Positions 43,892-47,336 of a stretch of 64,000 nt of DNA are shown here, in pieces. Position 1 is the stretch's first letter. The number at the start of each line of letters is the position of its first letter. Location of the stretch: NCBI RefSeq assembly GCF_019931275.1, contig NZ_JAIOTY010000001.1:744001-808000 (forward strand), given 5' to 3'. The notes under the pieces were generated by a model. That model saw only the letters and a program-made list of their open reading frames with translations. It was not told where the DNA came from and did not search any database. Made by a program: the position numbers and the translations under genes. This DNA comes from Nitratidesulfovibrio sp. SRB-5. GTDB lineage: Bacteria > Desulfobacterota > Desulfovibrionia > Desulfovibrionales > Desulfovibrionaceae.

Positions 43892-44191
43892 GGGTATGGC
43901 TTATACCGTTTTTCCGCACCGTTGGAAAGGCGTGCGGCATTGCGCGCGGCGCGTTGCGCCCAGGTCGGAGACGGGTCGTCGCAGCCCGGCGCACCGGGGA
44001 AAGGTTGAACCGTCTGGTGGCTTGGGCTATGGTTCTGATCGTCTGGTCAGGCCAGACAGGTCAGGCCAGTCTGGCGTGTCCCGCCCGCCGTGTCCGGATT
44101 CCGCATTCCGGGCGGAACTCCAAACGCAGTTGCCCGGAACATACCCGGAACGCACCCGGAATACACCCCAAATCCCCCCCCCGATACCCTC
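43892..44191. other. Gene-free stretch with two short tandem repeats
   Basis: 300 bp before the nitroreductase gene. It holds a 14-bp unit twice (44045-44072) and an 11-bp unit three times (44133-44165). No ribosome binding site or promoter stands out. Confidence 0.5.
44133..44165. repeat. 11-bp tandem repeat, three copies
   Basis: CCCGGAACATA, CCCGGAACGCA, CCCGGAATACA, 27 bp before the nitroreductase ATG. Confidence 0.85.
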
Positions 44192-44728
44192 ATGACAGAC
44201 CCTAATGTTTCCGATGCATCCCGCGTCGTGCTCGACGCCCTGCACCAGCGGCGCAGCATCCGTCGCTTCACCGGAGAGCCGGTCACCCGCGACGAGATCG
44301 TGGCCATGCTGGACGCGGCCCGCTGGGCTCCCAGCGGCCTGAACAACCAGCCGTGGCGCTTTCTGGTGGTGCAACCCGGCGACCCCCGTCAGGAGGCGCT
44401 GGCGGGCTGCACCAAATACGCCCGCATCGTGCGCGACGCCGGGGTGCTGGTGGCCGTGTTCCTCGACCGCGAGACCTGCTACCACCCCATGAAGGACCAT
44501 CAGGGCGCGGGCGCCTGCATCCAGAACCTGCTGCTGGCCGCCCATGCCCTGGGCCTTGGCGCGGTGTGGCTGGGCGAGATCGTCAACCAGGCGGAGCAGG
44601 TGGAGCAGGCCCTGGGCCTGCCCGCCGGACGGTATGAATTCATGGCCCTCATCGCGGCCGGGCGCCCTGCCCAGCGCGGCTCGTCCGACCGCGTCCCCCT
44701 TGAAAATCTGCTGCTGGAGGCCCTGTGA
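44192..44728 (+). CDS. Nitroreductase-family flavoprotein
   Basis: A 178-residue FMN-dependent oxidoreductase. Visible family blocks: RRSIRRFTGEPV (FMN phosphate), WAPSGLNNQPWRFLVV, and GLGAVWLGEI. Members reduce nitro compounds, quinones or flavins with NAD(P)H; the substrate here is unknown. There is no Shine-Dalgarno before ATG 44192 (the upstream is C-rich). The frame reaches back to 44090. Its stop overlaps the next start (GTGA), so it is the first gene of a compact redox operon. Confidence 0.9.
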   Translation: MTDPNVSDASRVVLDALHQRRSIRRFTGEPVTRDEIVAMLDAARWAPSGLNNQPWRFLVVQPGDPRQEALAGCTKYARIVRDAGVLVAVFLDRETCYHPMKDHQGAGACIQNLLLAAHALGLGAVWLGEIVNQAEQVEQALGLPAGRYEFMALIAAGRPAQRGSSDRVPLENLLLEAL

Positions 44729-45366
44729 GTTCTGTAAGGCCGCGTATTTCCACCTTTCCCATGGGGCCGCTGGAGACCAACGGCTACCTCGTGCACCTGA
44801 ACGGGGCCGCCGTGGCCGTGGACCCGGGCGGCACGCCGCGCCCCATGCTCCAGTACGCGGAAAAGAACGGGCTTGCGCTCACGCACATCCTGATCACCCA
44901 CCTGCACTTCGACCACATCTACGGCGTGGCGGCCCTGGTGGAAGCCTCCGGCGCGCCGGTGCTGGCGAGCGCGGCCGACGCCTTCCTGATGGAGACGGAA
45001 CTGGGCAGGGGCGGGGCCTTCGGCTTTCCGCGCGTGACGCCGTTCAGCTACCAGCCGGTGGAGGAAGGCGATCTGGACCTGGGCGCCATCGCCTGTCGCG
45101 CCCTGACCACGCCGGGCCATACACCGGGCAGCCTGTCGTTCCACTTTCCGCAGGTGGGCGCGGTGATCGTGGGCGACCTGCTGTTCCATCGGTCCATCGG
45201 TCGCACGGACTTTCCCGGCGGCGACCTGGACGCCCTGCGCCGCTCGGTGGTGCAGAAGATTTTCACCCTGCCCGACGACACCGTGGTCTACCCCGGTCAC
45301 GGGCCGGAAACCACCGTGGGTTCCGAAAAATTGAACAACCCGTACTTCACGGAATTTTCCCTGTAG
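44725..45366 (+). CDS. Metallo-beta-lactamase-fold hydrolase (glyoxalase II-like)
   Basis: A 213-residue protein with the metal-binding signature THLHFDHIYG, then TTPGHTPGSLSF, VGDLLF (bridging Asp) and YPGHGPETTVGSEK, as in glyoxalase II-like hydrolases, so a dinuclear metal site is expected. The substrate is unknown, with a thioester or persulfide being plausible from the neighbours. GTG 44725 lies in the nitroreductase stop with GGAGG seven bases before it. 38 bp after its stop begins the TusA-like gene. Confidence 0.9.
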   Translation: MSSVRPRISTFPMGPLETNGYLVHLNGAAVAVDPGGTPRPMLQYAEKNGLALTHILITHLHFDHIYGVAALVEASGAPVLASAADAFLMETELGRGGAFGFPRVTPFSYQPVEEGDLDLGAIACRALTTPGHTPGSLSFHFPQVGAVIVGDLLFHRSIGRTDFPGGDLDALRRSVVQKIFTLPDDTVVYPGHGPETTVGSEKLNNPYFTEFSL

Positions 45367-45404
45367 CCTTTACGCACAGGCTGTTATATGCGGAGCCCAT
45401 GGAC

Positions 45405-45647
45405 ATGTCGGAACCGCTGCTCGTAGATTTGCGCGCCACCTGCTGAGGGGTGGGCATGGAGGTAGGTTGGTACCTCCGTTTCAAGCCGGATGCGGCCCTG
45501 GTGTTTCTGGTGGGCCACGGATCCGTGGACGCGGCGCTGGGTGCGCTGCATACGGTTTCCGGCTGGGTGGCCGACGTCACCCGGCACGAGGACCATGCGG
45601 AGATCCGCTTCCGGCGGGGCACGCCGGGCGTTCACGATGCACGGTAG
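45405..45647 (+). CDS. TusA/SirA-like protein with predicted selenocysteine at the in-frame TGA
   Basis: Read through TGA 45444-45446 as selenocysteine, the frame gives 80 residues starting MSEPLLVDLRATC, then U14, then GVGMEVGWYLRFKPDAALVF. This matches the short TusA/SirA fold: the beta-1 motif D-x-R-x-x-C, where relatives have Cys-Pro, reads Cys-Sec. A helix, a second strand (AALVFLVGHG), and a terminal strand (AEIRFRRG) follow. Nineteen bases after the TGA a nine-pair hairpin closes on loop GGTTGG (see next entry). Without readthrough, two useless fragments result: 13 residues, and a 63-residue frame from ATG 45456 that lacks the motif. Start: ATG 45405 is nine bases after GGAG; ATG 45399 is also in frame. 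TusA proteins relay sulfur as persulfide. Confidence 0.82.
45444..45479 (+). promoter_or_regulatory. Sec UGA codon and bacterial SECIS-like hairpin
   Basis: TGA (45444-45446) is followed after nine bases by ATGGAGGTA (45456-45464), loop GGTTGG (45465-45470) and TACCTCCGT (45471-45479): nine pairs with one G-U. Bacterial SECIS elements have a short apical loop with G in its first two positions, 16-37 bases after the UGA. Here the loop begins with GG and lies 18 bases after it. Confidence 0.75.
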
Positions 45648-45659
45648 CACGGGACGGAC

Positions 45660-45810
45660 GTGCCGGGTGTGTCGGGCGTGCCGGGTGTGCCGGGCGTGCC
45701 GGGTGTGCCGGGTGTGTCGGGCGTGCCGGCTGTGCCTGACGGGCCTGAAGCCGAACGTGCCTGATGGGCCTGATGGGCCTGATGAGCCCGACGGACCTGA
45801 CAGGCCCGGC
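45660..45810. repeat. 9-bp minisatellite after the TusA-like gene
   Basis: Nine copies of GTGCCGGGT/GTGTCGGGC type (45660-45740), then several GATGGGCCT-type units to about 45807. In the frame of the preceding gene, past its TAG, it would encode GVP collagen-like triplets. Confidence 0.85.
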
Positions 45811-45875
45811 GGGCCGACGGAGCCAAACGATGCCGGTGGGGGGCGCCACACCGGGGGGCACGGCAAGGAGTAGCC

Positions 45876-46508
45876 ATGAACGCAAGCATCATTCCTGCCC
45901 GGGCGTTGTCATGCAGCCCGCGCGCCAACGGCAACAGCGACAAGCTGGCCGCCCTGTTCGCGCGCGGATTCGCCGAGGCTGGCGGCAACATAGAGGTCAC
46001 GCTGATGCGCCAGTACGAGGTGCGCCCCTGCGTGTCCTGCTACCGCTGCCAGCACGATCCCAACGGCTGGTGCTTCCTGGAGGGCACCGACCGCAGCGCG
46101 CCGCTGTTCTCCATGCTGCACGAGGCCCCCGCGCTGTTCTTTGCCGCGCCGGTGTTCTTCTACCACCTGCCCGCCATGTTCAAGGCGTTCATCGACCGGG
46201 GGCAGTCGTACTGGCTGCGGCGCGAGGCGGGCGACCCCCTGCTGCTGTCCCTGCCGCGCCGCACGGCCTGGGTGGCCCTGGTGGCCGGGCGCAAGAAGGG
46301 CGAACACATCTTTGACGGCAGCCTGCTGACGTTGCGCTACTTCCTGGCGGCGTTCAACATCACCCTGGCCGAGCCGCTGCTGCTGGCGGGCTATGATGGT
46401 CCGGACGACATCGCCAATGATCCGGCAACCTGCGCGCGGGTGCTGGAATACGGCGGCAACGCCGCGCGGGCCATGTTCGACGGTCAGGCCATGGCCGTGA
46501 ACCTGTAG
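45876..46508 (+). CDS. Flavodoxin-fold NAD(P)H/FMN reductase with Cys motif (iron-sulfur flavoprotein-like)
   Basis: A 210-residue flavoprotein. The N-terminal ALSCSPRANGNSDKLA is the FMN phosphate loop. CVSCYRC with C52, C55 and C58, plus C66 (NGWC), is the extra cysteine motif seen in iron-sulfur flavoproteins and related reductases. FAAPVFFYHLPAMFKAFIDR is the typical FMN-ring loop and dimer segment. AAGGAG is seven bases before the ATG. With nitroreductase, hydrolase and the Sec-TusA protein it forms a putative thiol/persulfide redox cluster. Confidence 0.88.
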   Translation: MNASIIPARALSCSPRANGNSDKLAALFARGFAEAGGNIEVTLMRQYEVRPCVSCYRCQHDPNGWCFLEGTDRSAPLFSMLHEAPALFFAAPVFFYHLPAMFKAFIDRGQSYWLRREAGDPLLLSLPRRTAWVALVAGRKKGEHIFDGSLLTLRYFLAAFNITLAEPLLLAGYDGPDDIANDPATCARVLEYGGNAARAMFDGQAMAVNL

Positions 46509-46511
46509 CCG

Positions 46512-47336
46512 GTGCATTCCCTGCGAGCACGCCTTGCGGCGTGGGCGCGCGCCTGCGGTCTGGCGGAAGTGCGCTGCGCCGCCTGCGGCAGGCCGTGTGA
46601 AGGGCATGCCGCAACGCCTTGCGCTGCGCCGTGCGGCGGGCAATCCACCGCATCGTCCGCCCCGGCGGCATCCCCTTCCCATGCCCCGCCACTGTGCCCG
46701 GCCTGCACCGTGGCCCTTGCGCCGCGCCGGGGCGGCATCTGCCCGCGCTGCGGCGCGCCGCACGCCCTCGCCACCCTGCCGGATTCCCCCTGCGGCCATT
46801 GCCTGACGTCCCCGCCGCCCTGGGCCGCCTTTCGCATGCACGGCCTGTACGAAGGCACCCTGCGCCATCTGGTGCTGCGCGTGAAATTTGCCGAGGACCA
46901 TGCCGCCGCGCGCGTGCTGGGCGGCTTGCTGGCCACGGCCTGCCACGGCCTGCCCCGGCCCGACGGGGTGGTGCCGGTGCCGCTGCATCCGGAACGCCTG
47001 CGCCGCAGGGGCTGCAACCAGTGCCTGGAGCTTGCCCGGCTGCCCGCCGCCGCTCTGGGCGCGCCGCTGCGCCCCGGCTGGCTGGCCCGCGTGGTGCCCA
47101 CCCGCCCGCAGACCGGGCTTTCACGCCAGGAACGCCGCCGCAACCTGCGCGGGGCCTTCGCCGCGCATCCGGACGTGCGCGGCAGGCGCATCCTGCTGGT
47201 GGACGACATCTGCACCACCGGCACCACGCTGGCCCGCGCCGTGGACTGCCTGTTGCGGGCCGGTGCCGTGGCCGTGGACTGCGCCGTGGCGGCGCGTACG
47301 CCCGCCCATCCCGCACACGCCGCTCGGCGCGGATAG
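46512..47336 (+). CDS. ComF-family phosphoribosyltransferase-like protein
   Basis: A 274-residue ComF homologue: an N-terminal zinc-finger-like part with paired cysteines (CAACGRPC, CPRCGAPH, CGHC) and a C-terminal type I phosphoribosyltransferase domain with the PRPP loop RILLVDDICTTGTT. ComF proteins take part in DNA uptake or repair-linked processes in naturally competent bacteria. Its role in this group is unclear. GTG 46512 begins three bases after the flavoprotein stop, so the two may be co-transcribed. The segment at residues 35-60 is an Ala/Pro/Ser-rich insertion. Confidence 0.88.
   Translation: MHSLRARLAAWARACGLAEVRCAACGRPCEGHAATPCAAPCGGQSTASSAPAASPSHAPPLCPACTVALAPRRGGICPRCGAPHALATLPDSPCGHCLTSPPPWAAFRMHGLYEGTLRHLVLRVKFAEDHAAARVLGGLLATACHGLPRPDGVVPVPLHPERLRRRGCNQCLELARLPAAALGAPLRPGWLARVVPTRPQTGLSRQERRRNLRGAFAAHPDVRGRRILLVDDICTTGTTLARAVDCLLRAGAVAVDCAVAARTPAHPAHAARRG

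Follow-up and report, generated by a model that had tools for sequence, protein, structure and literature searches.

The window, i.e., the whole stretch of 64,000 nucleotides that we analyzed (G000:C1:744001-808000) in the 4.12 Mb genome of Nitratidesulfovibrio sp. SRB-5, contains a gene of 80 codons that mechanical gene calling does not recover and that, in our reading, encodes a selenoprotein: an in-frame UGA would be decoded as selenocysteine (Sec), and the product is predicted to take the fold of the sulfur carrier TusA. We are highly confident in these points taken jointly (identity of the protein, Sec decoding, and TusA fold), in the absence of any protein or selenium data. The features on which the argument rests are the following:

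45392..45395, + strand: Shine-Dalgarno-like GGAG, 9 nt before ATG 45405, recognized from the sequence.
45399..45401, + strand: upstream in-frame ATG, the start chosen by the first-pass annotation and the less likely one; 3 nt after GGAG; absent in the relative L004.
45405..45647, + strand: putative TusA-fold selenoprotein gene, 80 residues with Sec14, MSEPLLVDLRATCUGVGMEVGWYLRF..., stop codon TAG.
45444..45446, + strand: TGA taken as the selenocysteine codon, residue 14, after the TGC of Cys13; conserved in relatives.
45456..45479, + strand: putative bacterial SECIS-type hairpin, loop GGUUGG at 45465-45470, 18 nt after the TGA.

The frame 45399-45647 contains a single TGA (45444-45446), right behind a TGC, and closes with a TAG at 45645-45647, so that the claim of the first-pass annotation that an open frame is broken by TGA alone is borne out; with U for TGA, 45399-45644 reads MDMSEPLLVDLRATCUGVGMEVGWYLRFKPDAALVFLVGHGSVDAALGALHTVSGWVADVTRHEDHAEIRFRRGTPGVHDAR. 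The same annotation had the gene start at an ATG with a GGAG upstream; both elements exist at 45399 and 45392, but ATG 45405 is better placed and is the likely start as judged from spacing and comparison, since the GGAG lies 9 nt before it versus 3 nt before ATG 45399, and since L004 lacks the first ATG and keeps the equivalent of 45405. Routine under-calling had also been predicted, and mechanical ORF calling at this locus indeed gives a 65-codon frame from GTG 45450, downstream of the TGA, and nothing else. The interval between the TAG and the next gene (45648-45875) is a run of GTGCCGGGTGTGTCGGGCGTG-like repeats; in sister species, the frame extends through a low-complexity tail and stops close to the start of the next gene. 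In a tree of the family, the window copy falls among Nitratidesulfovibrio records.

Searching 59 related genomes with tblastn, we found the gene in 28 of them, with a TGA at the same codon in 28/28, inside the motif D-L-R-x-x-C-U-G-[VL]-x-x-E-[VI]-[GS]-W-[YH]-L-R. The set holds 29 rows, from which L029, a response-regulator-like frame rejected as a family member, was dropped for all counts; three rows count a second TGA, as their match reaches or passes the gene's own stop. In the resulting alignment (A1), D8, C13, Sec14, L24, and W54 are invariant (28/28), that is, on both sides of the TGA, R10 is kept in 26 rows, and position 15 is R or H in two. The alignment of homologues proposed in the first-pass annotation thus came out in favor of its reading, codon 14 being TGA throughout with upstream and downstream flanks conserved; of the findings that would have refuted it, a lack of conservation upstream of the TGA is contradicted by D8 (28/28), C13 (28/28), and R10 (26/28), and a sequencing error at 45444-45446 is ruled out, since independent genomes share the TGA.

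The distribution of the family was addressed by profile searching: out of 297 genomes from the order, 157 (about half) match the Sec family. Among the best 150 of these 157 matches, the TGA is present in 149, and one is stop-free; the codon was not inspected in the seven positives falling below (G044, G056, G113, G151, G162, G177, and G181), of which G113 and G181 may have been picked up through the Cys paralogue alone (see below). In a phylum-wide sample, 6 of 395 genomes match, every one from the window's own family. Scanning named contigs for the TGA-bearing DNA pattern returned 59 stretches, 14 of them unrelated and 45 members (42 via the motif filter and three by eye). Member records are titled Nitratidesulfovibrio, Pseudodesulfovibrio, Solidesulfovibrio, Humidesulfovibrio, Fundidesulfovibrio, Desulfocurvus, Desulfonatronovibrio, and Desulfovibrio, with some wider-titled MAGs (Proteobacteria, Deltaproteobacteria), including L077, L111, L115, and L118; L111 does not differ, within the part compared, from a genome belonging to the family of the window. 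Judging from the sequences searched, the Sec family appears only in Desulfovibrionales and in MAG records grouping with them. The motif filter provided 87 distinct copies; it required D-x-[RSK]-x-x-C-U and, thus, cannot by itself prove the upstream motif. Ten further copies that it missed (L131, L132, L135-L138, L142, L085, L095, and L122), absent from the 87-copy hairpin counts given below, carry the TGA in 10/10. The copy L146 (genome G086) is intact, with a single TGA. The gene of L129 (G209) has an extra in-frame TAA and looks broken; the same genome has a stop-free Cys paralogue, L202.

In bacteria, the loop of a SECIS element lies 16-37 nt after the UGA and has a G at its start. The hairpin that the first-pass annotation had described (nine pairs, loop GGTTGG, 18 bases past the TGA) was confirmed by folding and meets this rule: its stem pairs 45456-45464 with 45471-45479, one of the nine pairs being U-G, and its loop starts with GG. 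The stretch 45447-45485 folds at -15 kcal/mol (z -2.83; 2 of 200 shuffles as good), while extending it to 45447-45500 gives an ordinary fold (z -1.18), and an Rfam scan of the window gave no match at gathering scores. Across the 87 copies, 566 of 609 cells of the seven core pairs are paired, versus at most 419 with the 3' side slid by 1-3 bases, a score reached by none of 1000 shuffles; restricting the set to 43 representatives with identities below 80% gives 273 of 301 versus at most 213. Pair 18-29, in which base 29 is a silent wobble base, occurs as G-C (43), A-U (22), or G-U (22), and never as A-C; pair 20-27, at the top of the stem and outermost on the loop side, is unpaired in 26/87 copies.

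Codon choice in the stem points the same way. Leu +10 is CTC in 80/87 copies, versus a background of 0.194, and, further along these genes, from +13 to +28, the 150 Leu codons include 95 CTG and 15 CTC. Likewise, Val +6 is GTA in 36/60 (background 0.078), Ile +6 is ATA in 18/22 (0.155), Gly +7 is GGT in 51/78 (0.102), and Arg +11 is CGT in 57/86 (0.091). The background is the codon usage of the flanking genes of 67 loci, and the P values, which assume independence, are descriptive only. No synonymous variant of the window copy out of 5000 folds as well; in 60/87 copies, at most 5% of the variants do, leaving 27/87 in which the hairpin is not singly significant. The core pairing, the codon choice against usage, and the poorer folding of the synonymous variants of the window copy show the hairpin to be under selection at the RNA level. 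The conservation of the TGA, of both its flanks, and of the silent hairpin bases makes the locus more than a chance arrangement.

The decoding machinery is in place: the window's genome has SelB (358.6 bits), SelA (615.7 bits), and tRNA-Sec (83.6 bits), so that a missing SelB or SelC, another finding that would have counted against the first-pass reading, is not met. Together with TGA conservation and the hairpin, this supports the claim that the UGA is read as Sec, a decoding that is inferred and not measured. The genome also has four formate dehydrogenase alpha (FdhA) genes with one in-frame TGA each. Three of these genes gave a readable hairpin; the fourth did not fit the motif used, and one more row of that output is a spurious frame. 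Their loops differ from GGUUGG, and these hairpins, thus, support the use of Sec in the genome and not a common loop sequence. At G000:C1:366428-369425 (L224, L225), one of the four TGA-bearing FdhA matches falls into two frames, which cover profile positions 2-887 and 887-1009.

Within the order, SelB-wing_3 was found in 150/157 family-positive versus 105/140 family-negative genomes (Fisher 2.6e-7, uncorrected for relatedness); as the latter figure implies, Sec use does not need the Sec family. Seven family-positive genomes have no SelB-wing_3 match. SelA was searched in six of them (G021 was outside this check): it is present in G130, G052, and G098 and was not found in G104, G006, and G291. 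The TGA is kept in G006 and G291 despite the lack of SelA and SelB hits, these genomes being 86% and 81% complete.

G104 holds the only TGA-less orthologue, L127, whose frame is continuous across both halves with CPC in place of CU. It reads DLRQACPCTLTRDTSWYLRF, where its genus mate L128 has DLRRVCUGLTRDASWHLRF; anchoring the alignment from both sides, we read Sec as corresponding to the second Cys of CPC, with one Pro inserted. In the tree, L127 clusters with L026 and L128 (support 100/99), which belong to the same genus and carry the TGA. The tree has few columns, unsettled bootstrap values, many open forks, and a long branch for L127, and this grouping is the only one we used. Neither SelB-wing_3 nor SelA was found in G104, which is 85% complete, making their absence likely, not proved; both are present in the genus mates G042 and G107. 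The hairpin of L127 is gone as well (-3.5 kcal/mol vs. -11.0 in L128). As far as these sequences can tell, the loss of the TGA fits the absence of SelA and SelB.

Against Pfam and NCBIfam, the protein encoded in the window had no match better than chance; the Pfam TusA profile (PF01206) matched none of the 43 members of a second alignment (A2) at E up to 1, while the same profile finds matches in 30/30 relatives, 29 of them above the cut-off, and matches the window's genome elsewhere. The NCBIfam scan of the 43 members brought up no selenoprotein model and just two families, none with an E better than 0.028, and a PDB sequence search with A2 brought none. The CPxP motif is absent; C13, Sec14 (shown as C14), G15, and G17 are invariant in the 43 A2 rows.

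The evidence for the fold comes from a predicted structure (mean pLDDT 90, pTM 0.80), which has a beta-alpha-beta-alpha-beta-beta order. Foldseek retrieved HP1264, YeeE-YeeD, IscS-TusA, and the SirA-like DSY4693 at probabilities of 0.99-1.00, with E no better than 0.018 and nothing below 0.001. In the VIA structural comparison, six of the first seven rows (Z 9.2-7.7) are TusA-type: YeeE-YeeD twice, SirA-like DSY4693, IscS-TusA twice, and YhhP, where we take YhhP and YeeD to be TusA-type. Smr and Alba folds come at Z 7.7 and below, so the lead of TusA is clear for the best three rows only, and models lacking any clear match commonly reach a best VIA Z of 7 to 8 as well. HP1264, first in Foldseek and sixth in VIA, is not shown to be a TusA member by its title, and it is its presence among the seven best structural rows that keeps our confidence from being higher. 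The predicted fold is that of TusA, Sec lying immediately ahead of helix 1, and the TusA/SirA-like character claimed at first reading finds support in it.

The position assigned to Sec at that time does not hold, being off by one: Cys13 had been placed at the TusA Cys and Sec at the following Pro, while profile alignments put Sec14 on the catalytic Cys. The direct comparison of Sec family and TusA profiles is weak and limited to the C-terminal half (51%, E 1.5e-4). The link comes from a family of Cys paralogues with the motif DLRxVxCGLVPAI, whose profile matches that of the Sec family along practically its whole length (97.3%, E 1.7e-11) and aligns Cys-on-Cys with TusA, the latter comparison being itself weak (28%). 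On the strength of these two alignments, we infer that Sec occupies the catalytic-Cys place of TusA and that Cys13 is an extra residue one before it.

With one of its members as a query, the Cys paralogue was found in 74 of the 297 genomes, in 72 via a stop-free frame; the two others (G224 and G258) matched just through the Sec family itself. The phylum sample gave 2/395 genomes, both from the window's family, and a Pfam scan of 20 members gave one chance match and nothing else. Their Cys at the Sec place is invariant, and the position just ahead of it may hold T, S, V, Y, A, or C. Sec/Cys pairs among homologues are, thus, of two kinds, the CGLVP paralogues and the CPC orthologue L127. In 19 of 30 loci (L191-L220), the paralogue adjoins mnmE, two of them with only a short mnmE piece; in L206, for example, 114-1496 is mnmE, followed by the paralogue. 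MnmE acts on U34 of tRNA, and TusA feeds the thiolation of U34; this neighborhood would fit a TusA-like role of the Cys paralogue.

The surroundings of the selenoprotein gene are different, with the following four neighbors in the window:

44090..44728, + strand: nitroreductase family protein (PF00881).
44725..45366, + strand: metallo-beta-lactamase-fold hydrolase (PF00753); best NCBIfam match GloB, below the cut-off.
45876..46508, + strand: NADPH-dependent FMN reductase/flavodoxin-like protein (PF03358, PF02525), with CX2CX2CX7C.
46512..47336, + strand: phosphoribosyltransferase-domain protein (PF00156), which, by name, we take to be ComF.

A homologue of the hydrolase lies directly upstream of the selenoprotein gene in 56/83 loci with enough flank, and one of the FMN reductase directly downstream in 66/81; all four neighbors are missing from the loci of Solidesulfovibrio and Fundidesulfovibrio and from several others. 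A catalytic-motif test of the metallo-beta-lactamase neighbor gave 19/63, a figure on which we base no conclusion. In the FMN reductase (45876-46508), the segment CVSCYRCQHDPNGWC holds a four-Cys cluster common to homologues. The pattern CX2CX2CX3-9C is found in 54 of 67 reductase homologues, and in the other 13, by eye, the fourth Cys stands slightly further on; this cluster presumably resembles the compact one of iron-sulfur flavoproteins, and the protein is possibly one of them. No sel gene and no YeeE/YedE transporter was seen among the four window neighbors examined.

We propose the following course of events. Ribosomes would start at ATG 45405 and reach the UGA at codon 14, where SelB and Sec-tRNA would insert selenocysteine, guided by the hairpin at 45456-45479, as inferred from conservation. 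Sec would act as the nucleophile, either taking up a sulfane sulfur or a selenium atom or attacking a persulfide; Cys13 or another thiol would resolve the Sec species, and the adjacent flavoprotein or another reductant would reset the site. These last three steps are inferred, and we advance such a chalcogen relay as a working proposal that falls somewhat short of an even chance. The first-pass annotation had leaned towards a redox pair rather than a simple sulfur carrier; the sequence leaves this undecided, and any function is at this stage an inference.

The redox alternative survives best. Sec and Cys would form a thiol-disulfide-type center (a selenylsulfide) reduced by the flavoprotein, without any sulfur transfer, the TusA fold being a mere scaffold. 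Cys13 and Sec14 are vicinal and both invariant (28/28), the CPC of the Sec-less L127 retains two Cys, and a PF03358-type reductase with clustered Cys sits downstream in 66/81 loci. However, the remaining 15/81 have no reductase at that place, and the Cys paralogues keep only the Cys at the Sec place, so that a single nucleophile is enough there, as in TusA carriers. We regard this alternative as possible, on the doubtful side. Less favored, and in our opinion unlikely, is a carrier specific for selenium, taking Se from a Cys desulfurase or selenide to SelD or to tRNA selenation. The Cys paralogue next to mnmE in 19/30 loci would suit it. YedF is, we assume, related to TusA. It is tied to selenium metabolism in the accessible part of a 2022 review (PMC9312934). 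Against it, SelB occurs without the Sec family in 105/140 family-negative genomes, so the protein is not needed for selenoprotein synthesis, and sel genes are absent among the four neighbors examined.

Two more readings do without Sec altogether. The UGA could be a true stop, separating a 13-residue leader from a distinct gene of 63-65 residues (from ATG 45456 or GTG 45450), or the locus a decaying pseudogene; the downstream frame is what mechanical ORF calling returns, and L129 does carry an extra TAA. A stop would not explain the conserved residues before the TGA (D8 and C13 in 28/28, R10 in 26/28), the TGA-less orthologue and the Cys paralogues that are continuous across the site, or the conserved silent bases of the hairpin; moreover, the internal starts are not kept, GTG +2 being found in 43/87 copies and ATG +4 in 30/87, and we consider this reading very improbable. 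Finally, a TGA read as Trp (by suppression) or as Cys has nothing but the open frame in its favor and can be practically set aside, as the nitroreductase gene, whose final bases, up to 44728, overlap the GTG start codon at 44725, must be closed by a TGA, many relatives end the selenoprotein gene itself in TGA, four FdhA genes have an in-frame TGA expected for Sec, the hairpin has the spacing of a SECIS, and the one copy without the TGA comes from a genome in which SelA and SelB were not found.

Taking the selenoprotein reading further, we tentatively, and with less assurance than for the relay, suggest that this would be the first selenoprotein on a TusA fold: a carrier with Sec as its nucleophile and a vicinal Cys, which could bind sulfur or selenium in a mixed S-Se form, let it go through a Cys-Sec bond, and be reset by the four-Cys flavoprotein; Sec and Cys branches of a single carrier family specific to this lineage would coexist in sulfate reducers. 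Whatever its function, the family adds a selenoprotein without a Pfam or NCBIfam model, present in 157/297 genomes of an order of sulfate reducers, cultured strains included. It places Sec in a sulfur-carrier fold, where our literature searches found no selenoprotein, and makes testable what a carrier gains from selenium.

Rhodanese-like, DsrE-like, OsmC-like, and YedE proteins have folds other than that of TusA. All four are included in Table 1 of a 2026 review (PMC13188914), which counts 119 prokaryotic selenoprotein families; neither its section 7 nor Table 1 gives a family of TusA/SirA type or one with the CUG[VL]G motif. Neither "TusA" nor "SirA" is mentioned in the accessible part of PMC9312934, and no report of a TusA- or SirA-type selenoprotein was found in the open-access literature. 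Other Desulfovibrio selenoproteins are named in PMC1914089 and PMC1794560, as far as these texts were accessible; PMC1242214 does not mention Desulfovibrio, and none of the terms sought occurs in PMC2398784. In the available part of the deep-Sep paper (PMC12013277), Desulfomicrobium orale and Salidesulfovibrio onnuriiensis have zero new genes, and its authors state that the method may miss selenoproteins without Cys homologues. The present family may point to a blind spot in selenoprotein finders relying on known homologues, provided that it is not already among the known families of deep-Sep (Table S1).

With the catalogued selenoprotein families, the Sec family shares an in-frame UGA with an adjacent hairpin, and its "CU" motif also occurs in the MerB-like SaoL, HgcA, SaoC, and KCU-star of that catalogue, as far as the accessible part of the review goes (PMC13188914). 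The thiosulfate uptake complex YeeE(TsuA)-YeeD(TsuB) provides the top VIA rows (Z 9.2 and 9.1 over 72 residues), but its YeeE/YedE transporter is absent among the four window neighbors examined. The DLRxVxCGLVP proteins, for which we found no name, have the same D-x-R and C-terminal Trp strand; they differ in having Cys for Sec, no internal stop, an mnmE neighborhood, and the motif VPAI. TusA/SirA/YhhP proteins (PF01206) are similar in their size of about 80 residues, in the D-x-R before the active site, and in the beta-alpha-beta-alpha-beta-beta order, whereas the Sec family is set apart by Sec in place of Cys, CUG-[VL]-G in place of CPxP, an extra invariant Cys just before Sec, and the helix motif GW[YH]LR.
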